64,000 nucleotides of DNA from Microbacterium invictum (lineage in GTDB: Bacteria > Actinomycetota > Actinomycetes > Actinomycetales > Microbacteriaceae), in assembly GCF_014197265.1 (NCBI RefSeq), contig NZ_JACIFH010000001.1, forward strand, positions 2,418,001-2,482,000, in the 5' to 3' direction. The notes beneath the pieces were generated by a model. The model saw only the letters and a program-made list of their open reading frames with translations, was not told where the DNA came from and ran no database searches. Made by a program: the position numbers and the translations under genes. Position 1 is the first letter of the stretch. Each line of letters opens with the position of its first letter. Shown one piece after another: positions 41,970-64,000 of this stretch.

Positions 41970-42425
41970 TCAGGCGGGACGCTTGCCGTGGAAGACGAGC
42001 TCGATCATCGTGTGGTCGGGGTCGTGGATGTAGCAGAACTTCGACTGGTTCTCGGGGCGCTCGACGGGTCGGGTGTGGCGGATGCCGAGGCTGTCGAGGT
42101 GGCCGAGGAAACCGTCCCAGTCCTCCACCTCCATGGCGAAGTGGTACGGCGCCATGCGGTCCATCTCCTCGACCGGGGTGAAGTGCAGGTCGAAGCGGCC
42201 CTTGGTCATCAGCACCACGCGGGTGTTGCTCTTGGGCATGACCCGCTTGAGGCCGAAGACCTTCGTGTACCACTCGACCGTGCGGTCGATGTTGGTCGTC
42301 GGGAAGTTCACATGGTGGATGTACTTCGGCTCGATGCTGCGGCCCTGGTCGTCGAACTTGGGCTCGGGCAGCGCGAAGCCCTTGGCCACGTCGGTCGGGC
42401 CGGCGGTCGTGTCGGTGGTGCTCAT
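41970..42425 (-). CDS. VOC-family metal protein
   Basis: This 151-residue single VOC fold has the likely metal triad in YIHHVNFPTTN (His), PYHFAMEVED (His) and TMIELVFHG (Glu). The 36-residue polar N-terminal extension is unusual. It could be a second dioxygenase or an isomerase. The ATG at 42425 overlaps the FAH-family stop by 4 bp, so it is tightly coupled in the ring-cleavage operon. Confidence 0.8.
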   Translation of the reverse strand: MSTTDTTAGPTDVAKGFALPEPKFDDQGRSIEPKYIHHVNFPTTNIDRTVEWYTKVFGLKRVMPKSNTRVVLMTKGRFDLHFTPVEEMDRMAPYHFAMEVEDWDGFLGHLDSLGIRHTRPVERPENQSKFCYIHDPDHTMIELVFHGKRPA

Positions 42426-47385: not shown

Positions 47386-48294
47386 TCACACCTCCGGAAC
47401 GATCCCCTCGGCGAGCGCTTTCGCGAACGAGACGCGCACGGCTCGACGGCCCTCCCGACCCTCGGGGTGCTCGGCCGGCGTGGCTCCGAGCAGCTTGCGG
47501 GTGTACGGATGCTGCGGATGCTCGAAGACCTGCTCGGCGTCGCCCGATTCGACCAGTTCGCCCAGGCGCATCACGGCGATGCGGTCGGAGATGTGCCGCA
47601 CGATCTCGAGGTTGTGACCGATGAACAGGTAGCTCATGTCGGTTTCGAGCTGCAGATCGACGAGGAGGTCGAGGATCTGGTTCTGTGTCGACAGGTCGAG
47701 CGCGCTGAGTGCCTCGTCGCACACGACCAGTCGTGGCTTGAGCACGAGAGCACGCGCGATCGCGACCCGCTGCTGCTGCCCGCCCGACAGCTCGCTCGGA
47801 TACCTGTCCAAGTGCGCGCGGGTGAGGCCCACGTGATCGAATGTCTCGGCGGCGAGGCGGGCGCGGTCGGCCCGGTCTCCCAGCCCATGGCGCTTGAGCG
47901 CCGCCGTGACGGCCATCGAGACCGGCTGCCTCGGATTGAGTGACATCGACGGGTCCTGGAACACGGCCTGCACGTCACGACGGTAGGCCAGCGGGGTGCG
48001 GTGGCCGAACGCGCTCAGGTCGCGTCCGTCGAAACGGATCGACCCCGCAGAGGGGGCGATCAGCCGCAGGATCGCACGGCCCACGGTCGACTTGCCCGAA
48101 CCCGACTCGCCGACCAGACCCAGAGTCTCTCCGGGTTTGATGTGGAACGTGACATCCTCGACGACATTGCGCCGCGCATGGCGGAAGACGTTGCGCGCTT
48201 CGTAGCTGATCGACAGTCGATCGACGACGAGCAGCGCCTCGGCCGTCTCGCGGGGATGTGCTCCGGTGTCGGGCGAGCTCACCTTCGTCGTCAT
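47386..48294 (-). CDS. Peptide-type ABC transporter ATPase (DppF-like)
   Basis: This 302-residue ATPase has Walker [11 protein letters not shown]-loop [15 protein letters not shown], signature [15 protein letters not shown] and Walker [13 protein letters not shown], with H-switch [12 protein letters not shown], and a C-terminal oligopeptide-type extension ([15 protein letters not shown]). It pairs with the ATPase half of the fused protein upstream. The ATG overlaps the previous stop by 4 bp. Confidence 0.92.
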
Positions 48295-50195: not shown

Positions 50196-51139
50196 GCCGG
50201 GCGCGCCTTCGGATTGATGAGTCCGTACGAGATGTCGAGGACCATGTTGACGATGATGACGATCACGCCGACGACCAGCGCGACGCCCTGGACGACGGGG
50301 AAGTCCTTGGCCAGCACGCTCTGCAGCATCAGTGTGCCTATGCCCGGGAAGCTGAACACCTTCTCCATGACCAGGCTCACGCCGATCAGCACGCCCACTG
50401 CCAGTCCCACGGCCGCCAGCGCCGGTACGAGCGCATTCTTGAATGCGTAGGTCCACAGGATCCGCCGACGATCGACGCCGGCCGCCACGAGCGTGTCGAT
50501 GTAGCGAGAGCCGAGCGCCGCGGCCACCGCGGTGCGGGTCTGGCGGGCGATGAGCGCGGAGGTTCCCACCCCGAGCGCGATGGCCGGGAGGATGAGACCG
50601 GCAAGCCACCTGCCGACGTCCTGCGACGGCGGCGTCCACGCGAGCACCGGCGCGACCTGCAGCTGGATGACGAAGACGACGACGAGGATCTGGCCGAGCC
50701 AGAACTCGGGCACCGACTGCATGAACGCTGTGATCCCGGTCACCGCCCGGTCGCGCGGCTGGCCGGCCTTGATCCCCGCGAAGATGCCGAGACCCATGCC
50801 GAGGATGACGGCGACGACCAGACCACCGACCACGAGCGACAGCGTCGCGGGCAGTCGCTGCGTGATGAGGTCGGTCACCGCCTGCCCCGACAGCAGCGAC
50901 GTGCCGAGATCTCCCTGCAGCGCGGCTGCGTACCAGTCGAACAGGCGTGTGAAGAAGGGCTTGTCGAGGCCAAGGTGCGCTTCCAGTTCGGCGATCGCCG
51001 CCGGTGTCGCCGCCGCATCTCCGAGGATGGCGGCCGCGACGCTGCCCGGCACCAGATAGGTGAGCGAGAAGACCAGCAGCGAGACGATCAGAAGCTGCGG
51101 CACAGCCAGAAGGAGGCGGTAGCCGATGAGCTTCAGCAT
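50192..51139 (-). CDS. ABC transporter permease (DppB-like)
   Basis: This 315-residue protein has six membrane helices, starting YRLLLAVPQLLIVSLLVFSLTYLVPG, with DppB-type segments ATPAAIAELEAHLGLDKP, MQSVPEFWLGQILVVVFVIQLQVAPVL, and the coupling loop YIDTLVAAGVDRRRILWTYAFKNALVP. It forms a heterodimer with the permease half of the fused protein. A strong stem-loop separates it from the substrate-binding protein gene. Confidence 0.92.
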   Translation of the reverse strand: MLKLIGYRLLLAVPQLLIVSLLVFSLTYLVPGSVAAAILGDAAATPAAIAELEAHLGLDKPFFTRLFDWYAAALQGDLGTSLLSGQAVTDLITQRLPATLSLVVGGLVVAVILGMGLGIFAGIKAGQPRDRAVTGITAFMQSVPEFWLGQILVVVFVIQLQVAPVLAWTPPSQDVGRWLAGLILPAIALGVGTSALIARQTRTAVAAALGSRYIDTLVAAGVDRRRILWTYAFKNALVPALAAVGLAVGVLIGVSLVMEKVFSFPGIGTLMLQSVLAKDFPVVQGVALVVGVIVIIVNMVLDISYGLINPKARPA

Positions 51140-51210
51140 CTGGGGCCCCCGGGTGGTGGCATTCGCCGTGGCATGGTGGCGCTCTCTCCTTCGACGGTGA
51201 AAAGTGTCTT

Positions 51211-51242
51211 CCCGCGGTGCCGCTCGGGCGCGGCACCGCGGG
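51211..51242 (-). terminator. Stem-loop between binding protein and permease genes
   Basis: CCCGCGGTGCCG and CGGCACCGCGGG form a perfect 12-bp stem with an 8-nt loop, 9 bp after the binding-protein stop, followed on the minus strand by a T-bearing GACACTTTTC. It probably acts as a leaky terminator or mRNA stabiliser, raising binding protein over permease as in other importers. Confidence 0.7.
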
Positions 51243-51250
51243 AGCTACGG

Positions 51251-52804
51251 TCAGTCGGCCGTAACGGGATAGATGGAACGGTAGTCGATCAGGTTGATCA
51301 TGAAGGGCTGGTGCGGAGCCGGCTGCACGCCGGCGACCGTATCGGTGTTCCAGCCGATCGTCTGCCCGCCGACGACGAACCCGCACGCGAGTGCCTCGTC
51401 GTCGATGATGATCTTCATGACCTCCTGCCAGAGGGCGTCGGCCTCGTCGGAGGAGCCGGCGGCCTTGGCTGCGTCGGCTGCGGCCTTCAGCTCCGCGCTC
51501 TCGTAGCCGGAGGGGTTCTGCCGTGCGGAGCCGGCGAACCAGCTCTGGTACCAGTCGTAGGGCGTGATCTCCTGGTTCTGGCCGACGCCCAGGCCATACT
51601 GGCCCGAGTTCCAAGTCGACTGGAAGTCGGGGACCGGCAGATCCTGCACCGTGATGTTCACGCCGTCGAGCTGGTTCATGTTGTCGGCGAAGAACTCGAG
51701 TTGCCCCTTCAAGAAGGGTGCAGCCGGGAACGTGCCCTCGACCGTGGCGCCATCGAGAAGCGACTGCGCCCCGTCGAGATCGAAGTCGTAGCCGACGATA
51801 TCGGCGTTATAGCCGGGCTCACCCTCGACGAAATGCTGGTTCGGGGTGTCGAGCGTGTCTGCCGCGAACTGCGCGTATCCTTCACGGTCGAGCGACATGC
51901 ACAGCGCCTTGCGGACGTCGACGTCACCGAATTCGCCATCGGGCGCGCGGTCGAAATAGACGACGTTGTTGCGGACGGCTGCGTAGTCGTACGAGTCGAT
52001 GTTGGCGACCCCGTCGATGCGAGGCTGCTGGTCGAGTTCCACATCGGTGACGTGCAGTTCGCTACCGAGCAGGCCGGCGACGGCCGAAGTGTCATCGGCG
52101 ATGGAGTAGAGCTCGACGTTCTCGAAGTGGACCGGCTCGCCCCAATATGCCTCGTTGAGCGTGAACGCCGCCTTCGTGCCCTCGACCGAGTTTCCGGCGT
52201 CGTACTTCCAGGGCCCCGTGCCGACCGGCTCGGTCACCACGGTGCCGTCGGCGATCGCCGTCGGGCTGGCGATGAGCACGTTGTTGCGAGTGAGCATGGT
52301 GAGGAACGTCGGCGACGGGAAGGCGAAGTTGACCTTCGCCGTGAATTCGTCGACGATGTCGACCGACTCGACGGCCTGGAGCGGACCCGAGTATGCCCCC
52401 GGGTTGTCACGGACGTACTCGAGGTTCGCCTTTACGGCCTCGGCGTTGAAAGGCGTTCCGTCGTGGAAGGTGACGTCATCGCGCAGCGTGAGGGTCAGCG
52501 CCATCGGCTCCTCGACCCACTCGGTGGCCAGGTTGGGCAGAATCTCGTTGTCCTCGCCCAGGAGCACGAGTGACTCGTAGGGGACGTAATAGTAGCCGGG
52601 CTCGATCCGGGCTCCCGGCGCCCAGGTGCTCGGTGCGGAACCCCAGTTGATCCGCAGCGTGCCGGTCGGTTCGCTCGGTGGACCCGAGGTCGTGCCGTCG
52701 TCGGTGGGCGCGGGCTCTTCGCCGCTCCCGGAACAGCCGGTGAGCATCACACCGGCGATGACCAATGGGGCCATCACCTTGATCCATCTGTTCTTCGTCG
52801 CCAT
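51251..52804 (-). CDS. Extracytoplasmic substrate-binding lipoprotein (peptide type)
   Basis: This 517-residue SBP family 5 protein has a lipoprotein signal (lipobox LTGC, Cys24), a Thr/Ser/Pro linker, and the lobes of DppA/OppA-like proteins (TLRDDVTFHDGTPFNAEAVKANLEYV, VVTEPVGTGPWKY). Family 5 binding proteins capture oligopeptides, nickel chelates, glycosides and other compounds, so the ligand is open. The ATG at 52804 follows a GGAGG-like site. It is first in the importer operon. Confidence 0.92.
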   Translation of the reverse strand: MATKNRWIKVMAPLVIAGVMLTGCSGSGEEPAPTDDGTTSGPPSEPTGTLRINWGSAPSTWAPGARIEPGYYYVPYESLVLLGEDNEILPNLATEWVEEPMALTLTLRDDVTFHDGTPFNAEAVKANLEYVRDNPGAYSGPLQAVESVDIVDEFTAKVNFAFPSPTFLTMLTRNNVLIASPTAIADGTVVTEPVGTGPWKYDAGNSVEGTKAAFTLNEAYWGEPVHFENVELYSIADDTSAVAGLLGSELHVTDVELDQQPRIDGVANIDSYDYAAVRNNVVYFDRAPDGEFGDVDVRKALCMSLDREGYAQFAADTLDTPNQHFVEGEPGYNADIVGYDFDLDGAQSLLDGATVEGTFPAAPFLKGQLEFFADNMNQLDGVNITVQDLPVPDFQSTWNSGQYGLGVGQNQEITPYDWYQSWFAGSARQNPSGYESAELKAAADAAKAAGSSDEADALWQEVMKIIIDDEALACGFVVGGQTIGWNTDTVAGVQPAPHQPFMINLIDYRSIYPVTAD

Positions 52805-52825
52805 GAGACGCCTCCTCGCGTCGAT

Positions 52826-52847
52826 CCGAGTGCAGCGATGCACTCGG
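52826..52847. promoter_or_regulatory. Inverted repeat upstream of the binding-protein gene
   Basis: CCGAGTGCA-GCGA-TGCACTCGG is a perfect 9-4-9 inverted repeat 21 bp before the start. It could be an operator or a leader hairpin. Confidence 0.5.
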
Positions 52848-52988: not shown

Positions 52989-54566
52989 TCACGAGTTCGC
53001 CTGCCATGCGGGCAAGCCCCGCGCCTCATACATCGCGACCAGCTCGGGGAACGGGATCACCCCATGCGCGTCGGCCCATGCCTGCCAGGCGGTGGCGAGC
53101 TCGGCGACCAGCTCGGCGCGCTCTGCGGCGAGGTCGCGCCGCTCGGCACGATCGATGTCGAGGTCATAGAGCTCCCACGCCATGCCGACCTCGCGGACCA
53201 GCTTGAACCGGCCGCGCCGGATCGCGGCATTGCCGATGTGCTCCCAGCACAGGTCGCGCTCCGGCATCCGCTCGCCGCGGAGCATGCCGACCAAGCTCAC
53301 GCCGGTGACCGCCTCAGGCAGCGAACCGTCGGTCGCCTCGAGCACCGTGGGAAGCAGGTCTGTGACGTGCGCAGGGTCGTGGACGACATCGCCGCCGCCG
53401 ACGCCACCGGCGGGCCAGCTCACGATGAGCGGGGCCGCGATGCCGCCCTCGTGGACCCAGGACTTGTACAGCCGGAACGGCGTGTTCGAGAGGTGCGCCC
53501 AAGCGCGCCCGTAGCTCGCGTAGGTGTCTTCGCCGCCGGGAAGGATCGAGGGGTCGTTGCCGATCGCCACGGGTCGTCCGTCGCGGGTGCTGTCGGGCGT
53601 GACGTGCGGTGCGAAGCGTCGCCCGATCGGGATCTCCATGGCTTCGGCGCCGTTGTCACTGAGGAAGAGGATGAGGGTGTTGTCATAGGTGCCGGCGGCA
53701 TCCAATTCTGCCAGCACACGTCCTACGGCACGATCCATCGCCACGACCTGGGCCGCGTAGACCTCCATCCGGCTGGCCTGCCAGTCGGGCTGTTCGGCGT
53801 CTTCCCATGCCGGAACCTCCTGGTCACGCGGGGCCGGATGGATCTGGGTCGGGAAGAGCCCCAGCTCGGTCTGCCGTGCGCTGCGCTGCGTGCGGAGTGC
53901 GTCCCAACCTGCCGCGTAGCGGCCGGCGTGCGTCGCGATGTCTTCCTCGAACGCCTGCAGCGGCCAATGTGGCGCGGTCAGGGCGAGGTATAGGCAGTAC
54001 GGCTGCCGCTGGGCCGTCTGCTGCCGCACGAAATCGGCCGCGTGATCGGCCAGCGCGTCGGTGAGATAGAAATCGGCCCGCTGCGCGTCGGCCTCGGCAT
54101 CCGCTTCTCCGGCACGGAACGCCTTCGGATTGAAATAGCTCGTGCCGCCGCCGAGTATGCCGTAGAAGTCATCGAAGCCACGCCGGGTCGGCCAGGTCTC
54201 ATCGGGCTCGGTTACCTCGCTCGACAGGTGCCACTTGCCCGTGAGCGACGTCACGTACCCGGCGTCGCGCAGCAGCGACCCGAGCGTCGGAACATCGGGA
54301 TCGAGCGAGCCGCGGTACCCGACGGGCCGGGTGAGCACGCCGATCCCCACCTCGTGCGACGGTCTGCCGGTCAGCAACGACGCCCGTGTCGGACTGCATC
54401 GCGGGGTGGTGTAGAAGCTGCTGAAGCGGGTGCCGCGTTCGGCCAGCCGATCGAGGTTCGGAGTCGGGATCTCCCCTCCATACGCCGCGAGGTCCGAGAA
54501 GCCGAGGTCGTCGACGAGGATCACGATCACGTCGGGTCGGGCGGGCGGGCTGGCAAGCGGCGTCAT
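52989..54566 (-). CDS. Arylsulfatase family enzyme
   Basis: This 525-residue sulfatase has the formylglycine motif CSPTR (Cys57, in the set CSPTRASLLTGRPS), metal Asp pair VDDLG, GKWHL and HEGGIAAPLIVSWPAGG. The active-site Cys must be oxidised by a formylglycine-generating enzyme encoded elsewhere. There is no signal peptide, so the enzyme is cytosolic and acts on imported sulfate esters. I chose the ATG at 54566 after AAGGA. It stands alone between the importer and the demethylase and could free phenolic groups before demethylation. Confidence 0.92.
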   Translation of the reverse strand: MTPLASPPARPDVIVILVDDLGFSDLAAYGGEIPTPNLDRLAERGTRFSSFYTTPRCSPTRASLLTGRPSHEVGIGVLTRPVGYRGSLDPDVPTLGSLLRDAGYVTSLTGKWHLSSEVTEPDETWPTRRGFDDFYGILGGGTSYFNPKAFRAGEADAEADAQRADFYLTDALADHAADFVRQQTAQRQPYCLYLALTAPHWPLQAFEEDIATHAGRYAAGWDALRTQRSARQTELGLFPTQIHPAPRDQEVPAWEDAEQPDWQASRMEVYAAQVVAMDRAVGRVLAELDAAGTYDNTLILFLSDNGAEAMEIPIGRRFAPHVTPDSTRDGRPVAIGNDPSILPGGEDTYASYGRAWAHLSNTPFRLYKSWVHEGGIAAPLIVSWPAGGVGGGDVVHDPAHVTDLLPTVLEATDGSLPEAVTGVSLVGMLRGERMPERDLCWEHIGNAAIRRGRFKLVREVGMAWELYDLDIDRAERRDLAAERAELVAELATAWQAWADAHGVIPFPELVAMYEARGLPAWQANS

Positions 54567-54705
54567 CGCAGTTCCTTGCGGGTCATTGGCGGGATCCAAC
54601 CAGTCTGACGTGGTCGAGGTCACTCCTGATGCACACCAAGAATGCAGGCGGCACGATGGAGAGCCGAGAGGGTCGCGACTCCTCCCGGCTCTCGTCAGCG
54701 CTGTG

Positions 54706-56091
54706 TCATCCGGCAGTGGACATGGTCAGCCCGCGGTTGCCCGAACCCTCGGTGGTGTCCGAGAACGGGCGCGGGATGACGGTGGCGCGCACCCGTGTCT
54801 GGGCGTGCCGCTCGTAGAACGGACTGTCGACACTTCCCGCGGGCTCACCCCAGATGAGTTCGACCTCGTCGCCCGCTTGCACGTCTTCGTCGATCGAGCC
54901 CAGCGAGATCCAGCTGCGCGTGTTCGAGGAGTAGATCGTGAGGTTCATGTTGCCGACGTGGGCTCCGGCCTTGTCGAGACGATCGAACTGACACGCGGTG
55001 TAGGTCGCGAACGGCATCTCCAGGTACTTGCTGCGCGCTGCCCCGCGGTCGTACATGCTCGCGAAGATGCCGGCCACATCGTCCTTGTTCCACTCCACCC
55101 ATGCCTTGCGGCGGTGGGGGTCGCCCTGGCGCGCCTCGAGCGCCGCGCGCCCGATGAAGTCGTGGTCGAACTTCGCGATGTGCGTGTAGCCGAGGTCCCA
55201 CGGGGTGACGTAGTAGTCCTCGATGCGCTCGGCGACGAAGCTGCCCGCCAGAGCGAGAGTGCCTTCGAACGACCGGGCGTTCTGCCATTCGCGGAACGGC
55301 TTCATCTCGGGCTGCGAGTAGACGGCCGGGAGGGTGTTCGCGATCCAGCCCGACTCGGTGGCCACCGATGCGTATGCCCGGCCGCCGATCTGGGTGATGC
55401 CGAACTCCGCCCCGGCCTCGAGCAGGGTCTCGCGCACGCCCTCGAGCTCGGAGTACGGTCCGAAGAACTCGAGCCCGGGGAAACCCGACATGCGGTGGTT
55501 CAGCGCCGTGGCCTCGTACTTCCCGATCTTGAACCTTCCCATGTGGAAGAACTTGATCTCGGGCATGGGGCCGCCGTTGACCTTCTCGAAGATCTCCCCA
55601 GCCGTCGGGCCCTGCAGCTGAAGGCGGTACAGCTCGCGGGTCCCCGTCGGATTCATGACAAGACGCTCGTCCTTACGGACCTCGACGTTCCAGCCGCCGG
55701 TCTCGGCGTGGAACTGCACCCAGTTCAGCGCCGGCGGGCGACCGACGATCCGCACCAGGTTCTCGCCGAGGCAGAACAGGATGGCATCGCCGACCATGTT
55801 GCCGTCATGGCCGACGGCGATGAGCTGCTTCGCCTTCATCGGGCCGAAGTTGCGGAAGCTGTTCGCGCCGAGGTGCTCCAGAAGTCGGAAGACGTCGGGG
55901 CCTTCGACGATGAGGTCGGGCATGTGGAGCGACAGGTCCATCAGCGCCGCCGTCGTGCGCCAGGACTCCTGCTCGTCGCGCCAGTTCGTGAACTCGGGCT
56001 TGACCGGGAACACATACGCGCCGGAGCGACCGCTGCGCAGCAGCTGCAGGGGTCCGCCGACTCGCTGGATCTCATCTTCGAGGCTTGCCAT
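54706..56091 (-). CDS. LigM/DesA-like THF-dependent O-demethylase 1
   Basis: This 461-residue GcvT-family protein resembles vanillate/3-O-methylgallate and syringate O-demethylases (LigM, DesA), which move an aromatic O-methyl group to tetrahydrofolate. It has SGRSGAYVFPVKPEFTNWRDEQ, the active-region DLSLHMPDL, GPTAGEIFEKVNGG, GGRAYASVATESGWIANTLPAVY, DYYVTPWDLGYTHIAKFDHDFIGRAAL and VEWNKDDVAG. Tyr and His of the LigM aromatic pocket are present in part. AAAGGA precedes the ATG. It is divergent from a MarR gene, with an 8-4-8 operator between. Confidence 0.9.
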   Translation of the reverse strand: MASLEDEIQRVGGPLQLLRSGRSGAYVFPVKPEFTNWRDEQESWRTTAALMDLSLHMPDLIVEGPDVFRLLEHLGANSFRNFGPMKAKQLIAVGHDGNMVGDAILFCLGENLVRIVGRPPALNWVQFHAETGGWNVEVRKDERLVMNPTGTRELYRLQLQGPTAGEIFEKVNGGPMPEIKFFHMGRFKIGKYEATALNHRMSGFPGLEFFGPYSELEGVRETLLEAGAEFGITQIGGRAYASVATESGWIANTLPAVYSQPEMKPFREWQNARSFEGTLALAGSFVAERIEDYYVTPWDLGYTHIAKFDHDFIGRAALEARQGDPHRRKAWVEWNKDDVAGIFASMYDRGAARSKYLEMPFATYTACQFDRLDKAGAHVGNMNLTIYSSNTRSWISLGSIDEDVQAGDEVELIWGEPAGSVDSPFYERHAQTRVRATVIPRPFSDTTEGSGNRGLTMSTAG

Positions 56092-56138
56092 CTTTCGTCC
56101 TTTCAGGCTGTCTCCGCTGCTCTGCGGAACGATTCGAC

Positions 56139-56158
56139 TGTATCAGTTCCCTGAAACA
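56139..56158. promoter_or_regulatory. 8-4-8 inverted-repeat operator A
   Basis: TGTATCAG-TTCC-CTGAAACA lies between divergent demethylase 1 and the MarR gene. Seven of eight arm positions pair. Related elements lie at 61381-61400 and 61626-61645, so it is the best candidate for a shared operator of the region. Confidence 0.65.
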
Positions 56159-56249
56159 TTGGCAGTGGTAACCATATATTTGCGATCCGCTCATAGATTG
56201 CAGGTTCGTGCAAGAATGGGCCGATCCCGCGACGAACGAGAGGCAGCGG

Positions 56250-56732
56250 ATGCCGAAAGACGACACGCCGGACTGGCAGAGCGGTCTGCCGTTCACCCTG
56301 TGGCGGACTCAGCACGCCGTCCATCGTCGCGTGCAGGAGGCGTTCGAGGGCATGGACGTCACGATCACGCAGCTCGGGCTGGTGGTCCATCTCGACGACC
56401 TCGGCCACATGTCGGCGTCCGACCTGGCGCGTCGCTTCCGGCTGACGCCCCAGAGTGTGACGACCGCCCTGGGCGGGCTGGAACGCGCCGGCTGGGTGCG
56501 GCGGCTTCCGCATCCGGTGCACCGTAAGGTCATCTGGTACGAACTGACCGCCGACGGGGTCTCCCGTGTCGCGGAGGCGCGCACGCGCATGAGCCGGGTG
56601 ACGGCACAGATCGATGACCTGATCGGCGCAGACCGGCGCCGCGAACTGACCGAGAGGCTTTCGGAACTGGCCACCGCGATCGACGGCGAACTGCCTCCCC
56701 CGGGACCGCTGTGGCCCGCACCGCGGGCGTGA
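56250..56732 (+). CDS. MarR-family regulator of the demethylation region
   Basis: This regulator of about 160 residues has a MarR winged helix: MDVTITQLGLVVHLDDLGHMSASDLARRFRLTPQSVTTALGGLERAGWVRRLPHPVHRKVIWYELTADGVSRVAEA. The ATG at 56250 has AGAGG upstream; a GTG at 56208 in the same frame is possible. It is divergent from demethylase 1, and probably binds the 8-4-8 repeats shared by the demethylase and purU promoters. Confidence 0.88.
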   Translation: MPKDDTPDWQSGLPFTLWRTQHAVHRRVQEAFEGMDVTITQLGLVVHLDDLGHMSASDLARRFRLTPQSVTTALGGLERAGWVRRLPHPVHRKVIWYELTADGVSRVAEARTRMSRVTAQIDDLIGADRRRELTERLSELATAIDGELPPPGPLWPAPRA

Positions 56733-56763
56733 GCTCGCCGGCGGGCCGCGATTCGAGCCGTCC

Positions 56764-58116
56764 CTAGAGACGCGCCAGTGCGTCGATGTCTTCGAGAAAG
56801 TCGCGCACTGCGCTCTTGGAGACGGTGGCACGCGTCGAACGCAGCGCGCGCAGGTAGTGCGCCGTGCTGAGCAGCACGGGCGAATCGTCATCCGTTTCGG
56901 GCAGCACGATCGTGCCGGTGGCCGTCGACACCGGCGCCGCGCGAAGCGCGCCGGCCAGCGCGTCCTGGGCCGCGTGCCGCACGGCATACTCGATGTCGGC
57001 GGGGGTGAGGCCTTCGCTGGCGTCGACCAGCGCGTCGAGGTCGATGCCGTCGATCACACCGACCGGCACATATCGCCCCCAGATCGCCCGCCGGGCCTCG
57101 GCATCGGGAAGCCCGATCGGCACAACGTAGTCGAACCGCCCGTGGCGCAGGAACGCGGCGTCGAGAGCGCGTACGAAGTTCGTCGCGCAGATGAGCAGCC
57201 GGCCGTCGAGATCACGGAACTCGGACAGCAGCTTGAGCAGTTCGTTCGTCACGCCCTGCGTCGGCGACGGCGGGTCGCCACGGCGCCGTGAGGCGATCTC
57301 CTCCACTTCATCGATGAAGACGACCGCGTGCTCGAGTTCGGCGACCGTCTCGAACGTCTGGCGGAGTGCCGCCGGGAGCCCGCCCGGTGAGTCCGCGAGG
57401 CGCGAGGGGAAGAGCTCTACGAACGGCCAGTCCAGTCGCGAGGCGATCGCCTTCGCGAACGTCGTCTTGCCCGTTCCCGGTGGCCCGAAGAGCATGACGG
57501 CGCGCGGCGGCAGGACGCCGTAGCGGCTGGCCAGCGCCGGCCGCGCGAGCGGCGTCACGAGGCGCTCCTCGAGGAGCATCTTCTCCTTGGTCATGCCCGC
57601 GACGTTCCGCCACAGGTGTCGCGGCAGGATGCGTCCGCCGACCTCCTTCAGCAGATCGAGCTCACGGCGCTGCACCGGAAGCGGGCGCTCGAGGTATCGC
57701 AGCTGATGCCGCACCTCGAAGCCGTTCCCGACCAGGTGCGACACGCCGTTGCCTGAGTCGGCGACCAGAACCGACAGCTTGCCCAGTCCGAGCGGTGCCA
57801 TCCGGCGCTCGAGCCGGTCGAGCAACGCGGCACCGATGCGCTCCGGCTCGGCTGCGGGGGCCTCGTCGGTGAAGACGGTGAAGAACACGATCCAGCCCTG
57901 CGCGTGAGCAGCTCGGCCGACGGCGGCACCGAGGATTCGCTCGCCCGCGACCGCGACGACGGCATGGTCGGCCTGGCACGATGCGATCACTTCGGCCAGG
58001 GAGTACACCGGCGCTTCGCCGGTGTCGTGCGCGTGCTCCCACAGCCGGACGATCCCATCGAGGTCGTCGTCGTGGAAGTCGCGGATGTGCGCGTGGCTCT
58101 GCGTCCGGTGGTTCAC
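56764..58116 (-). CDS. GNAT-AAA ATPase fusion protein
   Basis: This 450-residue protein has a GNAT-like N-terminal domain (about 10-145: HIRDFHDDDLDGIVRLWEHAH, HAVVAVAGERILGAAVGRA, VSHLVGNGFEVRHQLRYLER) and a C-terminal AAA ATPase domain: Walker A GPPGTGKTT (211-219), Walker B VVFIDEVEEIA (D269, E270), sensor ICATN (Asn313), and RHGRFD with likely Arg finger. The combination is unusual. It is the last gene of a purU-metF-demethylase 2 unit, 63 bp after demethylase 2. It could remodel or modify a demethylase or a folate-linked enzyme; no function can be claimed. GGAGGA precedes the GTG at 58116. Confidence 0.85.
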   Translation of the reverse strand: MNHRTQSHAHIRDFHDDDLDGIVRLWEHAHDTGEAPVYSLAEVIASCQADHAVVAVAGERILGAAVGRAAHAQGWIVFFTVFTDEAPAAEPERIGAALLDRLERRMAPLGLGKLSVLVADSGNGVSHLVGNGFEVRHQLRYLERPLPVQRRELDLLKEVGGRILPRHLWRNVAGMTKEKMLLEERLVTPLARPALASRYGVLPPRAVMLFGPPGTGKTTFAKAIASRLDWPFVELFPSRLADSPGGLPAALRQTFETVAELEHAVVFIDEVEEIASRRRGDPPSPTQGVTNELLKLLSEFRDLDGRLLICATNFVRALDAAFLRHGRFDYVVPIGLPDAEARRAIWGRYVPVGVIDGIDLDALVDASEGLTPADIEYAVRHAAQDALAGALRAAPVSTATGTIVLPETDDDSPVLLSTAHYLRALRSTRATVSKSAVRDFLEDIDALARL

Positions 58117-58179
58117 GCCGTGTCCTCCGATGTCGTTTGCGCGGGTCGCCGACGTGAGTCCGCAGGCGACCCGCACACG

Positions 58180-59535
58180 TCAGACCGTCGCGTTCGCCCG
58201 GTAGGCGGTGCGCGCGAACTCGTCATAGGGCGAGTTCTGCACGGTCGCGCGGATACGCGGGAAGCCGAGGTCGGCCTCCGGCGCCGTGCCGTGACCGGGA
58301 TGCTCGCCCCATACGACCTCGACCCGGGTGCCGGCGGCGGCGACCGAGTGATCGACGAGCGCCAGTGACAGCACGGTGCCGACGGGTGCGATGTTCGAGG
58401 TCCAGAACGTCATCCCCTGCAGCCGGCCGTCGCGCTCGATGCGGAAGCGGCTGTACGTGTTCAGGTAGTCCGCCGCACCCGTCCCCAGCACGCGCGCGAC
58501 GTCGTCGCGGTCGAACTCGAGGGTGACCTTCGTGCGGCGCGCCTCGTCGCGGGCCGCCTCGAGCGCGTCGCGGCCGATGAAGTCGTGGGTGAACGAGATC
58601 GAGCGGCCGTAGCCGAGCTCCCACGGCGACACGTAGTAGTCGGCGATATCGTCGGAGTAGAAGCTGCCGCCGAGCGGTTTCATGCCCTCGTACGAGAACT
58701 TCGGCAGCCAGCGCCGGTAGTCCTCGAGGCGAGGGTCGGTGTAGATCGCGGGTGTCGGAGTCGGGATCCAGCCGCTCTCCACGCCGTTGGTGAAGTACGC
58801 CTTGCCGCCGACGGGATGGATGCCGAACGACTCACCGGCGGTCAGCAGAGCCTCTTTGACTGCGTTGTAGTGGACGAAGTCCCCGATGAACTCGTAGCCG
58901 GCCTGTCCCGCCATGCCGTGGCGCAGTGCGCGGACGGGGATGCCGTTCAGTTCGACCTGCACGGAGTGGAAGAACTTGACTTCGGGCAGCGGTCCGCCGA
59001 ACGCGCGCTCGACGGCGTACGCGGCGAGCGGACCCTGCACCTGGAAGCGGAACAGCTTCGGGTCGCCGTGCTTGCGGACCGACGAGTCGGGGTCGGTCGT
59101 GTACGCGACGTCGTATCCGCCCGTCGCGGCGTGGTACTTGACCCAGTTCTGCGCAGCGGGGACCCCCGTGAGGGTGAACGCCTCCTCGCCGGTGCGCAGC
59201 AGGATGCCGTCGACGATGATGTTGCCGTCGTACGACACCGGGACGAACTGCTTGGCCTGCCCGATCGCGAAGCTGTCGTAGTTGTTGGCGCTGACCTCGC
59301 GCAGCAGGCGCACGGCATCCGGCCCTTCGAGGAAGGTGTCGAACATGTGGAACGACAGATCGAACAGCGCGACGTTCTGGCGCCATGCGGCCTGCTCGGC
59401 ACCCCAGCCCGCGAACTCGGGCTCGACGACGGGAACCGTCCAGGCCGGCGCGCCGGGCTTCCAGAGCAGCTCGATCGGGGAGCCGGCCTGATCGATGGCG
59501 TCCTGCAGGGTGGGGGCGTTCACGGGGGCGTTCAT
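58180..59535 (-). CDS. LigM/DesA-like THF-dependent O-demethylase 2
   Basis: This 451-residue protein belongs to the same GcvT family, with DLSFHMFDTFLEGP, IGQAKQFVPVSYDGNIIVDGILL, LRHGMAGQAGYEFIGDFVHY, GGKAYFTNGVESGWIPTPTPAIYTD, DYYVSPWELGYGRSISFTHDFIGRDAL and VVWGEHPGHG. It is much closer to demethylase 3 than to 1; at the N terminus it reads SPIELLWKPGAPAW where 1 has SGAYVFP, implying another substrate. CAGGAGAG precedes the ATG. It lies 23 bp after the metF stop. Confidence 0.9.
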   Translation of the reverse strand: MNAPVNAPTLQDAIDQAGSPIELLWKPGAPAWTVPVVEPEFAGWGAEQAAWRQNVALFDLSFHMFDTFLEGPDAVRLLREVSANNYDSFAIGQAKQFVPVSYDGNIIVDGILLRTGEEAFTLTGVPAAQNWVKYHAATGGYDVAYTTDPDSSVRKHGDPKLFRFQVQGPLAAYAVERAFGGPLPEVKFFHSVQVELNGIPVRALRHGMAGQAGYEFIGDFVHYNAVKEALLTAGESFGIHPVGGKAYFTNGVESGWIPTPTPAIYTDPRLEDYRRWLPKFSYEGMKPLGGSFYSDDIADYYVSPWELGYGRSISFTHDFIGRDALEAARDEARRTKVTLEFDRDDVARVLGTGAADYLNTYSRFRIERDGRLQGMTFWTSNIAPVGTVLSLALVDHSVAAAGTRVEVVWGEHPGHGTAPEADLGFPRIRATVQNSPYDEFARTAYRANATV

Positions 59536-59558
59536 GGTTCTCTCCTGGGTGTGGCGCA

Positions 59559-60407
59559 TCAGCGCGCGCGGAAGTCGCGGATCCACTCGCTCGTGGCCGT
59601 GAGGCCGCCGAACGTGTAGAAGTGAAGGTGCACGCGGCCGTGCCGTGCGGGGTCGTAACCGGCGGCCAGCGCGCCGATGAGCTTGTCGGGTCCTGCGGTG
59701 CCGATCAGGTTCGTCAGCGAGAAGCCGTACTTCTTGACGATCATGGCGTTCGCGCCGATGCCGAAGCGCCGCGCGAAGCCGATCAGTCGCTTCACACCCG
59801 CCGGACCGGGCACCCCGATGCGGATCGGCAGGTCGATCCCCTCGGCGCGCACCTTCTCGATCCATGCCAGCACCGGCGACTCGTCGAACGCGAACTGCGT
59901 GATGATCGTGCCCTCGAGCCCTTGCTCGCGCAGCGCCGCGGCCTTGCCGCGCAGCGCGGCCCACAGCACGTCGTCGGGGATGTCGGGATGGCCTTCGGGG
60001 TAGCCGGCGATGCTGACGTGGCGCACGCCGTACTTCGGGAGCAGGCCGGTGCGGATCACGGACTCGGAGTCGGCGTACGGGCCTTCGGGCGTCGCCGGAT
60101 CGCCGCCCACGGCGAAGATGCTCTCGCTCGCCCCGGCGGCCTGCAGCGCGCCGAGGTACTCCTCGAGCTCGGCTCGGCCGTGCAGCCGGCGCGCCGAGAT
60201 GTGGGGCACCGGTGTGAATCCGCCGCCCAGCACCGCCGCGGCTGCGGTGAGCCGCATCGGCAGGTCCTCGTTGCCGAGGAAGGTGACGTTGATGCGTGTG
60301 CCGGCCGGGATCGCGGCGGCCGCCGATCTCAGATCCTCGGTGTCCTTTCCGGTCATCTCGAGCGAGAAGTCGGTGAGCAGAGCGATGCTCGTGGCGGGGT
60401 TCGTCAT
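59559..60407 (-). CDS. metF: Methylenetetrahydrofolate reductase
   Basis: This 282-residue protein is a short MetF: FSLEMTGKDTEDL, RINVTFLGNEDLPMRL, FAVGGDPATPEGPYADSESVI, TIITQFAFDESPVLAWIEKVRAEGIDLPIRIGVPGPAGVKRLIGFARRFGI. It uses FAD and probably NAD(P)H to interconvert 5-methyl- and 5,10-methylene-tetrahydrofolate. In a demethylation cluster it runs oxidatively, regenerating the carrier. In Sphingobium SYK-6 metF sits with ligM, which supports this role. Confidence 0.93.
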   Translation of the reverse strand: MTNPATSIALLTDFSLEMTGKDTEDLRSAAAAIPAGTRINVTFLGNEDLPMRLTAAAAVLGGGFTPVPHISARRLHGRAELEEYLGALQAAGASESIFAVGGDPATPEGPYADSESVIRTGLLPKYGVRHVSIAGYPEGHPDIPDDVLWAALRGKAAALREQGLEGTIITQFAFDESPVLAWIEKVRAEGIDLPIRIGVPGPAGVKRLIGFARRFGIGANAMIVKKYGFSLTNLIGTAGPDKLIGALAAGYDPARHGRVHLHFYTFGGLTATSEWIRDFRAR

Positions 60408-60445
60408 TGAAAGTGCCGTTCTCTTGTTGTGGGTAGTGAATGGCG

Positions 60446-61345
60446 TCAGAACACGACGGTCTCGCGCCCGTTGCGCATGACGCGGTCCTGGCAGTGCCAG
60501 GTGACGGCTCGGGCCAGCACGGCGCGCTCCACGTCGGCGCCGCGTCGCTGCAGGTCGGCCGCGGTGTCGGCGTGCGTGACCCTCACGACGTCCTGCTCGA
60601 TGATGGGGCCCTCGTCGAGGTCGCCGGTGACGTAATGCGCGGTCGCCCCGATGAGCTTCACGCCGCGCTCCTTCGCCTTGCGATACGGCCCGGCCCCGAT
60701 GAAGGCGGGCAGGAAGGAGTGGTGGATGTTGATGACCGGGACGCCGACCTTCTGCAGGAAGTCTTCGGAGAGGATCTGCATGTACCGTGCGAGCACCACC
60801 AGGTCGACGTTGCCGACGAGCAGGTCGAGGATGCGGGCCTCGGCATCGGATTTGTCGGCGCCCTGCGAGGGGACGTGGACGAAGGGGATGCCGAAGGACC
60901 GCACGTCGTCGGCGACGGCGGTGTGGTTGGACACGACCATCGGGACAGTCATCGGGATCTCGCCGCGACGCTGCCGCCACAGCAGGTCCAGCAGGCAGTG
61001 GTCGGACGTCGACGCGAGGATCGCGACGCGCTTGGGCGCCGACCGGTCTGACAGCGTCCAGGTCAGCCCGAGTCCCTTGCCGAGGGCATCCTGCAGCGAC
61101 TGCTCCAGGACCGGGCGGACCGCCGCGTAGTCGTCGACGTGGAAGACCGTGCGCTGGAAGAAGTTCCCGCCCTCTGGGTCGTCGGTGTACTGGTCGAGCG
61201 ACACGATGTTCACACCGTTCTCGGCGAGCGCCGACGAGGTCGCTCGCACCAGTCCCGGGCGGTCCTCGCCCTGGACCAGCAGTACGCCTTCGTCGGTGGG
61301 AAGCTTCAGCGCCGTGTTCGGGGTGCGGGGTGCGACGATCGTCAT
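60446..61345 (-). CDS. purU: Formyltetrahydrofolate deformylase
   Basis: This 299-residue enzyme has an N-terminal ACT domain (LLVQGEDRPGLVRATSSALAENGVNIVSLDQYTDD) and a formyl transferase-type catalytic domain: VVSNHTAVADDV (catalytic Asn), VINIHHSFLPAFIGAGPYRKAKERGVKLIGATAHYVTGDLDEGPIIEQDV (catalytic His and Asp). It hydrolyses 10-formyl-THF to THF and formate. Here it is the exit for methyl carbon from the demethylases. An AGGAG precedes the ATG. It heads the purU-metF-demethylase 2-GNAT/AAA unit. Confidence 0.94.
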   Translation of the reverse strand: MTIVAPRTPNTALKLPTDEGVLLVQGEDRPGLVRATSSALAENGVNIVSLDQYTDDPEGGNFFQRTVFHVDDYAAVRPVLEQSLQDALGKGLGLTWTLSDRSAPKRVAILASTSDHCLLDLLWRQRRGEIPMTVPMVVSNHTAVADDVRSFGIPFVHVPSQGADKSDAEARILDLLVGNVDLVVLARYMQILSEDFLQKVGVPVINIHHSFLPAFIGAGPYRKAKERGVKLIGATAHYVTGDLDEGPIIEQDVVRVTHADTAADLQRRGADVERAVLARAVTWHCQDRVMRNGRETVVF

Positions 61346-61380
61346 TGTCCGTGCTCTCCTTTGTGACAGTTATCTGGGAT

Positions 61381-61400
61381 GCTAACAGGCATCTGTAACA
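61381..61400. promoter_or_regulatory. 8-4-8 inverted-repeat operator C
   Basis: GCTAACAG-GCAT-CTGTAACA lies 36 bp upstream of purU. It has the same 8-4-8 layout and CTGwAACA half as site A. It overlaps a possible purU -35, with GATAAC (minus strand, 61374-61369) as the -10 candidate. Confidence 0.6.
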
Positions 61401-61502
61401 TATGGCATCCTTCGCGCCATGCTCGATCGTCCACCTACGCATGCAGATCCTGCCGCGGTCACAGTGGCACGATGGTGCCCGCGACGCAGAGAGGAGAGCA
61501 CG

Positions 61503-61574
61503 ATGGCACGCACCGGCGAGTGGTACTGCGACGACGACGAGTGCGAGTACTGCGACGGCGCCGAGACCGACTGA
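61503..61574 (+). CDS. Cys-rich 23-residue ORF
   Basis: A short ORF starts at 61503 after GAGAGGAGAGCA and ends TGA at 61574. The peptide contains WYC-D4-type spacing, CxxxxCxxC, with many Asp and Glu. A strong ribosome binding site supports translation. It lies between purU and demethylase 3 and could be a metal-binding or regulatory microprotein. It has no recognised homology, and coding is unproven. Confidence 0.5.
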   Translation: MARTGEWYCDDDECEYCDGAETD

Positions 61575-61625
61575 ACCCGACTCAACCCCTTCGATGCGGC
61601 CGATCCGACGCCGAGGTGGCGAGAT

Positions 61626-61645
61626 TGTTTCAGTTACCTTACAGT
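61626..61645. promoter_or_regulatory. 8-4-8 inverted-repeat operator B
   Basis: TGTTTCAG-TTAC-CTTACAGT lies 69 bp upstream of demethylase 3. The left arm matches sites A and C; the right arm is degenerate. A TTGTTT -35 (61625-61630) overlaps it. Confidence 0.5.
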
Positions 61646-61713
61646 TCTTCATACAACTGATTGCACACCCGATCGCGCGGGCAAGTGCTGACCGTGAGGC
61701 AAGGGAGCCGAGC

Positions 61714-63045
61714 ATGGCGTGGGACTTCGTCAGTCTTCAGCAGGGAATCGACCAGGCGGGATCACCGATCCAGCTGCTGTGGAAGCCGGGATCGGCACCG
61801 TGGAAGCCGCCGATCGTCGACGATGAGTACGTCGGGTGGGCGGCGGAGCAGAATGCCTGGCGCAGCGGCGTCTCGATCTCGGACCTCTCGTTCCACATGT
61901 CCGACACGTTCGTGCGCGGGCCGGGAGCAGCCCGTCTGCTCAGCGACGTCAGCGCGAACAACATCGAGACCTTCGAGATCGGCCAGGCGAAGCAGTTCGT
62001 TCCGGTCGCTGCCGACGGGAACATCATCACCGACGGCATCCTGCTGCGCGAAGGCGAGGAGTCCTACGTGCTCTCCGGGGTTCCCGCGGCACAGAACTGG
62101 GTCACCTACCACGCGTCGGCCGGCGGCTACGACGTCGACCTCGATACCGATCCGGACCGATCGTTCACACCCGGCGACCCCCGGCTGTTCCGGCTGCAGG
62201 TGCAGGGGCCCGCCGCCCTCGAACTGGTCGAGCGCGCGTTCGGCGGCCCCCTGCCCGAGACGAAGTTCTTCCATTCCGTCGAGGTGTCGCTGGGCGACGC
62301 CCGCTTCCGTGCCCTGCGGCACGGAATGGCCGGGCAGCCCGGCTACGAGTTCATCGGCCCCTACGTCCACCACGACGCCGTCAAGGACGCACTCCTGACG
62401 GCCGGGACCTCGCTCGGCGTGATCCACATCGGCGCGCTCGCGTACGCGACCAACGGCGTCGAGAGCGGGTGGATCCCCACTCCCACGCCGGCGATCTACA
62501 CGGATCCGACCCTCGCGGACTATCGCGCCACCGTCGGCCTGTACACCTATGAGGGGCAGAACCCGCTGCACGGCAGCTTCTATTCCGACGACATCACCGA
62601 CTACTACACGTCGCCGTGGGAGCTCGGCTACGGCCGCTCGATCTCGTTCAACCACGACTTCATCGGCCGCGATGCGCTCCGGGCGGCCAAAGAACGCGTG
62701 CGCCGCACCAAGGTGACGCTCGAGCTGAACCGAGATGACGTGCGTGACGTCTTCGGCGACAGCGGCTACCTGAACGACTACGGTCGGCACCGCATCGAGT
62801 CGAACGGTGCGCTGGTCGGCACCACCTTCCAGGCCGCGCGCATCGACCCGGTCGACGACGTGCTGGCCCTGTCGCTCGTCGACGCCGCGGCGGCCGAGCC
62901 CGGCACCGAGGTGGAGGTCGTCTGGGGACAGCACCCCGGGCGCGGCACGGCGCCCGACGCGGACCTCGGCTTCCTGCGCTTGCGTGCGACGGTGCGTCCC
63001 GCGCCGTACAACGAGTACGCCCGCACCGCCTACCGCGCGGACTGA
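61714..63045 (+). CDS. LigM/DesA-like THF-dependent O-demethylase 3
   Basis: This 443-residue GcvT-family protein is the closest relative of demethylase 2, sharing IDQAGSPI-x-LLWKPG, DLSFHMSDTF, IGQAKQFVPVAADGNIITDGILL, VERAFGGPLPE, LRHGMAGQPGYEFIGPYVHH, NGVESGWIPTPTPAIYTD and FYSDDITDYYTSPWELGYGRSISF. A LigM-type methyl transfer to THF is inferred. The close pair on opposite strands suggests duplication within the cluster and split substrate use. AAGGGAG precedes the ATG at 61714. Confidence 0.9.
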   Translation: MAWDFVSLQQGIDQAGSPIQLLWKPGSAPWKPPIVDDEYVGWAAEQNAWRSGVSISDLSFHMSDTFVRGPGAARLLSDVSANNIETFEIGQAKQFVPVAADGNIITDGILLREGEESYVLSGVPAAQNWVTYHASAGGYDVDLDTDPDRSFTPGDPRLFRLQVQGPAALELVERAFGGPLPETKFFHSVEVSLGDARFRALRHGMAGQPGYEFIGPYVHHDAVKDALLTAGTSLGVIHIGALAYATNGVESGWIPTPTPAIYTDPTLADYRATVGLYTYEGQNPLHGSFYSDDITDYYTSPWELGYGRSISFNHDFIGRDALRAAKERVRRTKVTLELNRDDVRDVFGDSGYLNDYGRHRIESNGALVGTTFQAARIDPVDDVLALSLVDAAAAEPGTEVEVVWGQHPGRGTAPDADLGFLRLRATVRPAPYNEYARTAYRAD

Positions 63046-63090
63046 CCGGCCTGCACAGGGTGGACCGGCCGCCGGCGGTGCGATGAGGCG

Positions 63091-64000
63091 TTACCAGGCC
63101 GAGGCGACAGCCGCGTGCGTCTCGAAGATGCCCTCGGTCGTCCCCGCCGGTGCCCTTCCGATGCCGCACTCCGTCGCCACACCGAACACAAGGGCATGCC
63201 GCAGCGCGGTCTCGATGCGACGGGCAGCGCCTTCGACGCCGTCCTCGCGGTGGACGAGGCCGAGGTAGAGCTCGGTTCCTTCCGGCAGCGCGAGGTCGTC
63301 GAGCGGCGCGAAGTACGCGTCGTCGTCACGGTCGATCGGAACGGGCAGGTGCAGCCAGGTGATCGGGCGGGGGGATGCCGCGAACAGGCGGTTCGCGAAG
63401 GCCACCAGATTCGCGGTGTCGACGGGCTCGACGAAGTGCTTCTCGGCGACGTCGCCATAGCAGAGGTGGAAGCCGGCCTCGACATCGGCCGGGACGGCGC
63501 CGGCCTGCTCGGCGGCGCGTTCGGTGAGCCCTGCCCAGAGGTCGTCCCACCACGGGTCGAGCACGCCCTTGCCTCGTTCGGCATAGGTGGCCTGCTCGAT
63601 GATCTGGAACTCGACTGCGTTGTTCCACTGGATCGCGAGGTCCTGGTGCGGGATCGCCGCGACGATCTCATCGAGCTCGCGGAACAACGCGTCCCGGTAA
63701 ACGGGCTCGATCGCCGCCCGCTGATCGGCGGGGAAGAACGCGCCGACGACGGCGAGCGGCGTGGGCAGCGACACCTGGAAACGCACGCCGGGACGCACGA
63801 CGCCCTCGTCGCGGAGGCGGCGGAACAGCGCGTACGACTCCACCGCGGCAGCGGCATAGCCGAGCGGGGGGAACCGGATCGACGCGGGGTCGACACCGTC
63901 GGCCACGCGGACCGGTCGGGCGTCGAGCATCCTCACCGGAATCGGGTTCTCGCCGACCCGCTCGATGCCGTCGGCTTTCCCGAGAACGTCGGCCTGGAAG
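63091..64000 (-). CDS. MetE-like methyltransferase core, 5' end outside window
   Basis: At least 303 residues are visible; the frame is open to the right edge, so a GTG at 63936 is only an internal candidate. It resembles COG0620 proteins (cobalamin-independent methionine synthase core): FQVSLPTPLAVVGAFFP, IQWNNAVEFQIIEQATYAERG, AGFHLCYGDVAEKHFVEP and VATECGIGRAPAG. HLC and the later TEC keep the zinc ligands, unlike the 39.6 kb copy. It may transfer methyl groups from 5-methyl-THF, an alternative sink to MetF/PurU. It converges with demethylase 3. Confidence 0.82.
   Translation of the reverse strand, partial: FQADVLGKADGIERVGENPIPVRMLDARPVRVADGVDPASIRFPPLGYAAAAVESYALFRRLRDEGVVRPGVRFQVSLPTPLAVVGAFFPADQRAAIEPVYRDALFRELDEIVAAIPHQDLAIQWNNAVEFQIIEQATYAERGKGVLDPWWDDLWAGLTERAAEQAGAVPADVEAGFHLCYGDVAEKHFVEPVDTANLVAFANRLFAASPRPITWLHLPVPIDRDDDAYFAPLDDLALPEGTELYLGLVHREDGVEGAARRIETALRHALVFGVATECGIGRAPAGTTEGIFETHAAVASAW

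Follow-up and report, generated by a model that had tools for sequence, protein, structure and literature searches.

What do three GcvT-family genes, crowded together with metF, purU and a MetE-like gene, do for Microbacterium invictum? The genes lie at 54.7–64 kb of the window analysed here, a stretch of 64,000 nucleotides that covers bases 2418001–2482000 of the genome (one contig, 3.58 Mb). The initial annotation of this stretch took them for a methoxyaromatic one-carbon (C1) module with three LigM/DesA-like O-demethylases. Gene identities, clades, residues, linkage and co-occurrence were computed here for these genes and their relatives. On the sequence evidence the module is real, and it is larger than had been drawn, the initial annotation having missed a linked eight-gene ring-cleavage operon at 39.6–47.3 kb. 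As a whole, the region quite probably serves as a supercluster for the catabolism of a methoxylated aromatic compound, in which demethylation to tetrahydrofolate (THF), formate release and opening of the ring by the linked operon would be combined.

Three putative O-demethylases of the LigM/DesA superfamily

P1 (54706–56091, minus strand), P2 (58180–59535, minus strand) and P3 (61714–63045, plus strand) are putative THF-dependent O-demethylases. As first described, they are GcvT-family proteins of LigM size, lying with metF, purU and a MetE-like gene. All three are intact open reading frames with a GcvT domain, and PF01571 is the sole Pfam family of each (113, 120.8 and 121.5 bits). The LigM equivalog NF047885 (cut-off 580 bits) gives 495 bits for P1, 412.1 for P2 and 376.7 for P3, and the DesA equivalog NF047633 (cut-off 800 bits) gives 510.1, 434.4 and 376.2, so that both cut-offs are missed by all three. 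The same LigM/DesA profiles score 376–510 bits on P1–P3, compared to at most 78 for GcvT models. For P2 and P3 alone, 376–434 bits stand against at most 78 for GcvT, 64 for trimethylamine N-oxide (TMAO) demethylase, 58 for sarcosine oxidase alpha and 50 for dimethylsulfoniopropionate (DMSP) demethylase. The top PDB relative of P1 (5e-121) and P3 (1.9e-90), the two proteins searched, is LigM. A grouping with aminomethyltransferases or sarcosine-type enzymes, named beforehand as the outcome that would speak against O-demethylases, was not found on profile scores.

Trees were built from 105 rows, after removal of 52 near-duplicates, and 67 of those rows went into the bootstrapped tree. The 67-row tree leaves out GcvT, part of the P2 rows and 15 of the 18 rows of f6, a further GcvT-family type seen near P2-type genes (L026:7381–8742 and 17 other rows). 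The outgroup of the 105-row tree is a single GcvT row, and DmdA, sarcosine-type, Dmt, Dmt50, Dmt06, SesA and BrdA rows were not included. Separate clades were obtained in both trees, with these rows and supports in the 67-row tree: P2/P3 (31 rows, support 100/100), P1 (14 rows, 100/100), LigM (6 rows, 100/100) and DesA (100/99), the last consisting of the 4 rows that score above the DesA cut-off. No order of the clades is claimed, because the deep joins rest on long branches. The nearness to LigM and DesA is shown by the profile scores, the first tree having a lone GcvT outgroup row and neither DmdA nor sarcosine-type rows.

The active-site residues were compared next to the clades, with LigM numbers that we take to be the 5x1i chain number minus 3. 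The catalytic tyrosine Y247 is kept in 53/53 P2/P3, 14/14 P1, 6/6 LigM and 4/4 DesA rows, compared to 1/18 f6 rows and 0/1 GcvT; W256 is present in all 77 P2/P3, P1, LigM and DesA rows and in none of the 19 f6 and GcvT rows. H60 is found in every P2/P3 (53/53) and P1 (14/14) row and in five of the six LigM rows, the sixth being gapped. R122 is an arginine throughout the LigM (6/6), DesA (4/4) and P1 (14/14) rows and in just two of the 53 P2/P3 rows; in P2 and P3 themselves it is a valine. Q57 is replaced by leucine in 51/53 P2/P3 rows and in 14/14 P1 rows, P1 of the window included. It is noted that 17 of the 18 f6 rows lack the LigM catalytic tyrosine and that none of the PF01571 matches of M. 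invictum was assigned to the f6 type. Profiles, clades and residues together place P1, P2 and P3 in the LigM/DesA O-demethylase superfamily. The earlier designation as LigM/DesA-like is supported at that level.

Arg122 of LigM is, we assume, the anchor of the benzoate carboxylate, and the substrate prediction for P1 as opposed to P2/P3 hangs on this role; no paper on what the individual LigM residues do turned up among the titles searched. P1, which keeps the arginine, is probably an enzyme for a benzoate-type substrate. P2 and P3 are predicted, also with probability, to take methoxyphenols or larger aromatics without the benzoate carboxylate.

The P2 clade is rare within the genus (5/295 genomes, M. 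invictum included). Carriage on plasmids was considered and rejected, all 327 matching plasmid records being <60% identical to P2. As a side observation, Rieske oxygenases with a VanA C-terminal domain occur near P2-type genes (L032:2218–3354; family at 11 loci, with one representative identified by Pfam).

Linkage to a probable methyl-to-formate route

The minus-strand genes purU (60446–61345), metF (59559–60407), P2 and a GNAT-AAA gene (56764–58176) follow one another with gaps of 38, 23 and 3 bases, which gives them the look of a single operon. Between purU and the divergent P3 there are 368 bp. Conservation of this arrangement was evaluated in 70 other loci, found by scanning the P2/P3 alignment against named genomes and taking the best 80 of 84 matches; gene presence was scored by tblastn, and three of the loci (L073, L075, L079) carry LigM- or P1-type genes alone. 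metF is present at 60/70 loci, purU at 59/70 and folD at 40/70, with all three at 39/70. The nearest P2/P3–metF gap is ≤500 bp at 51 of 59 loci, as is the metF–purU gap at 55 of 58. The recurrence of both adjacencies at most of the 70 loci indicates that the grouping is not due to chance.

PurU is a formyl-THF deformylase by its TIGR00655 score (351.4 bits vs cut-off 285.95) and would release formate. MetF falls far under the cut-off of the classical methylenetetrahydrofolate reductase (MTHFR) model TIGR00676 (35.7 vs 293.7). Its closest structure is PDB 7xg9, with 137 of 275 aligned residues identical (50%), which we take to be S6MTHFR of Sphingobium SYK-6. The PDB lists 7xg9 simply as 5,10-methylenetetrahydrofolate reductase. 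An SYK-6 MTHFR is reported to oxidise the 5-methyl-THF made by LigM to methylene-THF (PMC12585457), and MetF of the window, being of the 7xg9 type, is proposed to oxidise 5-methyl-THF too. The two organisms differ in that M. invictum has GcvT whereas SYK-6 is said to be without a glycine cleavage system (PMC12585457).

The following route may be proposed, in which we infer the activities, the direction of MetF, the cleavage by the VOC protein, the order of steps and the substrates. P1, P2 and P3 would each pass an aryl O-methyl group to THF. The adjacent MetF would oxidise the resulting 5-methyl-THF to methylene-THF, which FolD of the genome would convert to 10-formyl-THF, and PurU would then free THF and release formate. 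Opening of the demethylated, catechol-type ring would fall to the VOC enzyme encoded in the 39.6–47.3 kb operon, and the cleavage product would be handled by the aldehyde dehydrogenase, the fumarylacetoacetate-hydrolase (FAH) family enzyme, the hydrolase and the HbpS–MetE1 pair of that operon. The methyl-to-formate part, already suggested in the initial annotation as an exit through MetF and PurU, is well supported by the presence of metF and purU with P2/P3-type genes at 60 and 59 of the 70 loci. Away from the module, a single folD match and a single formate-THF ligase were found in the genome.

Genes for folate synthesis were also seen near the demethylase loci: pabB at 22/70, folP at 15/70 and folE at 7/70. 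Streptomyces accounts for 11 of the 15 folP loci, and in Streptomyces loci (L038, L040, L044, L045, L047 and others) pabB and folP, with folE in a few, stand beside the demethylase, metF, purU and folD.

The linked, putative ring-cleavage operon

All genes of the operon are on the minus strand, and their transcription order is LysR, (MarR), VOC, aldehyde dehydrogenase, FAH, VOC2, alpha/beta hydrolase, HbpS, MetE1. The operon is headed by the LysR regulator (46384–47289), which is followed by the VOC-family protein (44743–45681), proposed to be an extradiol ring-cleavage dioxygenase. Matches of the latter to the HpaD, BphC and catechol 2,3-dioxygenase models are weak (38–51 bits, cut-offs 320–366). 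Its translation shows, by eye, a histidine, a histidine and a glutamate in ICHVAL, NHTSYEV and RVEYAA, presumably the pattern of extradiol enzymes. Next come the aldehyde dehydrogenase (43256–44746; PF00171, 512.4 bits), the FAH-family enzyme (42422–43231; PF01557, 167.8 bits) and VOC2 (41970–42425), a small, putative glyoxalase-fold protein 75% identical to an Acidimicrobiia copy. The best solved relative of the alpha/beta hydrolase (41139–41909) is a gamma-lactamase, with meta-cleavage-product hydrolases among the others. The last two genes encode an HbpS-like protein (40667–41137) and MetE1 (39611–40663). Flavonoid (fde/ifc) clusters also have a glyoxalase-type dioxygenase and a hydrolase according to PMC11069340, a likeness by description.

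The MetE1 profile matches solved MetE-family structures (1ypx, 9.5e-39). The zinc site of MetE is, as we take it, HxC plus a distal cysteine. In MetE1 the zinc histidine and the distal cysteine are absent in 5/5 sequences, and a cysteine near the middle ligand remains in two (L029, L066). The HbpS gene adjoins MetE1 in 18/18 places, the window's included, and in Trebonia kvetii (L076:5922–7592) the two form a single open frame of 556 residues. We infer that the HbpS–MetE1 pair may act jointly on the ring-cleavage product. MetE1 is like the PRK06520-type MetE-like proteins in its profile match to MetE-family structures; it differs from them in scoring 88.7 bits against a cut-off of 313 and in being without the zinc histidine and the distal cysteine.

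A search of 394 actinobacterial genomes from one class gave 13 genomes with a MetE1 match. In 11 of the 12 besides M. invictum the full eight-gene order is found, the exception (G809) being a MetE2-type match. Counted by locus, the whole order is kept, colinearly, at 14 of the 17 MetE1 loci outside the window, among which L026 and L161 apparently represent the same Pseudofrankia place. At an E of 1e-140 or better, six of the 394 genomes have a P2-clade gene, and every one of these six also belongs to the 13 with MetE1; the naive hypergeometric p is 3.4e-10, or 6.1e-9 when M. invictum is left out and G809 is counted as negative.

Several observations weigh against the supercluster. The single GcvT row of the alignment also has H60 and R122, so these two residues alone are no mark of O-demethylases. 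The VOC protein is weak on extradiol models (HpaD 50.6 bits, cut-off 321.4), and the co-occurrence p-value ignores shared ancestry. Of 24 hand-picked P2-clade genomes, ten have the VOC gene and ten have MetE1 (two of the latter as weak matches), which makes the operon one partner of these demethylases and not an obligatory one. Neither metF nor purU is found at 9/70 loci, including L029, which has the ring-cleavage operon. A formate-THF ligase is encoded in the genome, so that formate is not necessarily the end of the C1 flow and recapture is possible. Finally, neither a sulfatase gene nor the GNAT-AAA gene is conserved alongside the module.

The operon and the demethylases could be two separate catabolic units that share one catabolic island. 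MetE1 and the VOC gene are each missing from 14 of the 24 hand-picked genomes, a P2-clade gene is lacking in seven of the 13 genomes that have MetE1, and P2 and MetE1 are ~17.5 kb apart in the window. However, every P2-clade genome of the 394-genome sample (6/6) has a MetE1 match, and in the five besides M. invictum the P2–MetE1 distance is ~6–12 kb in three and ~39 kb in one, with the genes on different contigs in the last. We regard two independent units as unlikely, although not negligibly so, and the supercluster is preferred.

A more specific form of the supercluster can be put forward tentatively, as a possibility that we would not yet favour. P2 and P3 may be THF-dependent aryl O-demethylases of a third class, which act on methoxyphenols lacking a ring carboxylate and feed an extradiol pathway not yet described. 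In that pathway a MetE homologue free of zinc, paired with an HbpS-like protein, would act on the cleavage product and not make methionine. If true, there would be a branch of aryl O-demethylases across Actinomycetota and Pseudomonadota for which no assay was found in the literature searched. Since demethylation by way of THF does not require oxygen, such enzymes would be of use in converting lignin and plant phenolics. A methionine-synthase homologue minus two zinc ligands, placed within an aromatic ring-cleavage operon, would likewise offer a concrete protein family for study.

Other substrates, known systems and flanking genes

Could the three proteins simply be the actinobacterial LigM and DesA, acting on lignin acids in an ordinary vanillate/syringate module? 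They share the superfamily and keep the catalytic tyrosine, and P1 keeps R122. A MarR-type regulator gene (56208–56732, plus strand), divergent from P1 with 116 bp between them, recalls DesR of SYK-6 (PMC6888825); counting the window, 10 of 25 P1 copies have a divergent MarR relative ≤400 bp away. Against this, P1–P3 are below the LigM and DesA cut-offs and in separate clades, and M. invictum has better candidates elsewhere. Of the eight GCV_T matches in the whole genome, six are LigM-superfamily genes, one is GcvT and the remaining one, at 271429, is partial. Three of the six are in a second cluster (2967–2989 kb; L011, L012), 0.5 Mb from the window. Two of them, LigMa (897.9 bits) and LigMb (865 bits), are above the LigM cut-off of 580, which indicates that the canonical vanillate module sits outside the window; the third, divergent gene does not pass and reaches 479.1 bits on the DesA model. 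Their neighbours are an own metF–purU pair, a PIG-L protein, a 4-oxalomesaconate tautomerase (GalD-like) just at the cut-off (440.2 vs 440), a catechol-2,3-dioxygenase-like protein (277.1 bits vs cut-off 320.2) and a PRK06520-type MetE-like protein that passes its cut-off (532.9 vs 313). In addition, P2-type genes are carried by ten proteobacterial genomes (nine from sphingomonads, one from a Nitrospirillum), and seven of these have an above-cut-off DesA as well. An ordinary vanillate/syringate module is therefore rather improbable for this locus.

It is also conceivable that P2 and P3 share the fold alone and use a non-aromatic or N-/S-methyl donor, in the manner of DmdA or the sarcosine-type enzymes, given that the GcvT fold serves several donors and that R122 and Q57 are altered in both. 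The gap between 376–434 bits on the LigM/DesA profiles and at most 78 on the GcvT, TMAO, sarcosine and DMSP models, the invariance of Y247 and W256, and the link of P2/P3 to a ring-cleavage operon make such a donor very improbable. P1–P3 as methylenedioxy-ring demethylenases like SesA and BrdA (known here by description), yielding methylene-THF directly, can be given hardly any credence: THF-dependent demethylenases do occur in actinobacteria (Rhodococcus, Arthrobacter, Sinomonas; PMC5547118), but metF accompanies P2/P3-type genes at 60/70 loci, where a methylene-level donor would not need MetF, and one BrdA is just 26.7% identical to LigM and DesA (PMC5547118).

Among the closest known systems, LigM, the vanillate/3-O-methylgallate O-demethylase of SYK-6 (PDB 5x1i/5tl4), has in common with P1–P3 the superfamily, the catalytic tyrosine, the size and a metF neighbour; the differences are scores under its curated cut-off, own clades and, in P2/P3, the loss of R122 and Q57. 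SYK-6 has a ligM-metF-ligH operon and the MarR regulator DesR (PMC6888825), whereas the window has purU in the place of ligH together with the linked ring-cleavage operon. DesA, the syringate O-demethylase, is of the same superfamily, but the three proteins score 376–510 bits against its cut-off of 800 and form separate clades. In PMC9296663, DesA-like aminomethyltransferases of thermophilic metagenome-assembled genomes (MAGs), several of them actinobacterial, are putative THF O-demethylases with the catalytic tyrosine; these sequences emerge from the DesA branch there, and the comparison to P1 is by description. Dmt, Dmt50 and Dmt06 of Rhizorhabdus dicambivorans are THF-dependent aryl demethylases for dicamba (PMC9404685). 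MetF1 of the same dicamba system is reported as a 5-methyl-THF dehydrogenase, like the role proposed for MetF of the window. Dmt06 has 473 residues, compared to ~440–460 for P2/P3-type proteins, a distinction by size and not by sequence.

The three-demethylase set, taken at first as little described, is not unique. P1 with at least two P2/P3-type genes occurs, by best-hit label, at six of the 70 other loci (in one, L059, with a 33% copy), and the actinobacterial MAG enzymes are in print (PMC9296663). In a literature search over titles and the beginnings of abstracts, with most subscription journals outside its coverage, neither a P2/P3-type enzyme nor MetE1 was found. The chemistry is of a known kind, and P2/P3 lie on a separate branch with no assayed member in the literature searched.

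MetE3, at the window end (63091–64000, minus strand), had been offered as an alternative exit for the methyl carbon. Its open reading frame spans 2481094–2482146 of the contig, with the start 146 bases beyond the window. No Pfam or NCBIfam family, PF01717 included, matches at E 0.001, the profile of 24 sequences has no PDB match at E 0.1, and comparison to the MetE1 profile is weak (probability 1.5%). The zinc ligands first noted are H227, C229 and C327, invariant in 24/24 aligned homologues picked from 120 matches listed; the motif holds, and the label 'MetE-like' comes solely from it. MetE3 is near three of the 70 loci, two of Demequina (L022, L028) and one Sphingomonadales record (L046). 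In 150 Microbacteriaceae genomes, MetE3 is found in 25 and LigM-like genes in 11, with both in three (the window's included) where 1.8 are expected (p 0.27). Being near so few loci and without enrichment alongside demethylases, MetE3 was rejected as a general methyl sink. It is possible that MetE3 is occasionally recruited to demethylase loci, and it is probably outside the module.

The GNAT-AAA protein, encoded directly downstream of P2, combines a GNAT-like part at its N-terminus with an AAA ATPase at its C-terminus, and has relatives in Microbacterium cf046 (L013) and Agromyces allii (L014), two of the 70 loci. The sulfatase gene (52989–54623, minus strand; CSPTR motif) is a local addition, seen at 0/70 loci. 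Also at 0/70 loci is an alpha-L-rhamnosidase (L010:941–3766) that adjoins the cluster just beyond the window, making a glycoside substrate possible. As substrate clues, the sulfatase, GNAT-AAA and rhamnosidase genes were set aside on these counts. A Dpp-type ABC importer (47386–52843, minus strand), named by reading translations alone, is a candidate for substrate uptake, and relatives of its binding protein are found at 5/70 loci. Further out, 6–12 kb beyond the window end (L010), lie genes for a thiamine-diphosphate enzyme, with relatives near 8/70 loci, an amidohydrolase (7/70), an Ldh_2-type dehydrogenase recognised by tblastn alone (5/70) and a CMD-family protein (5/70).

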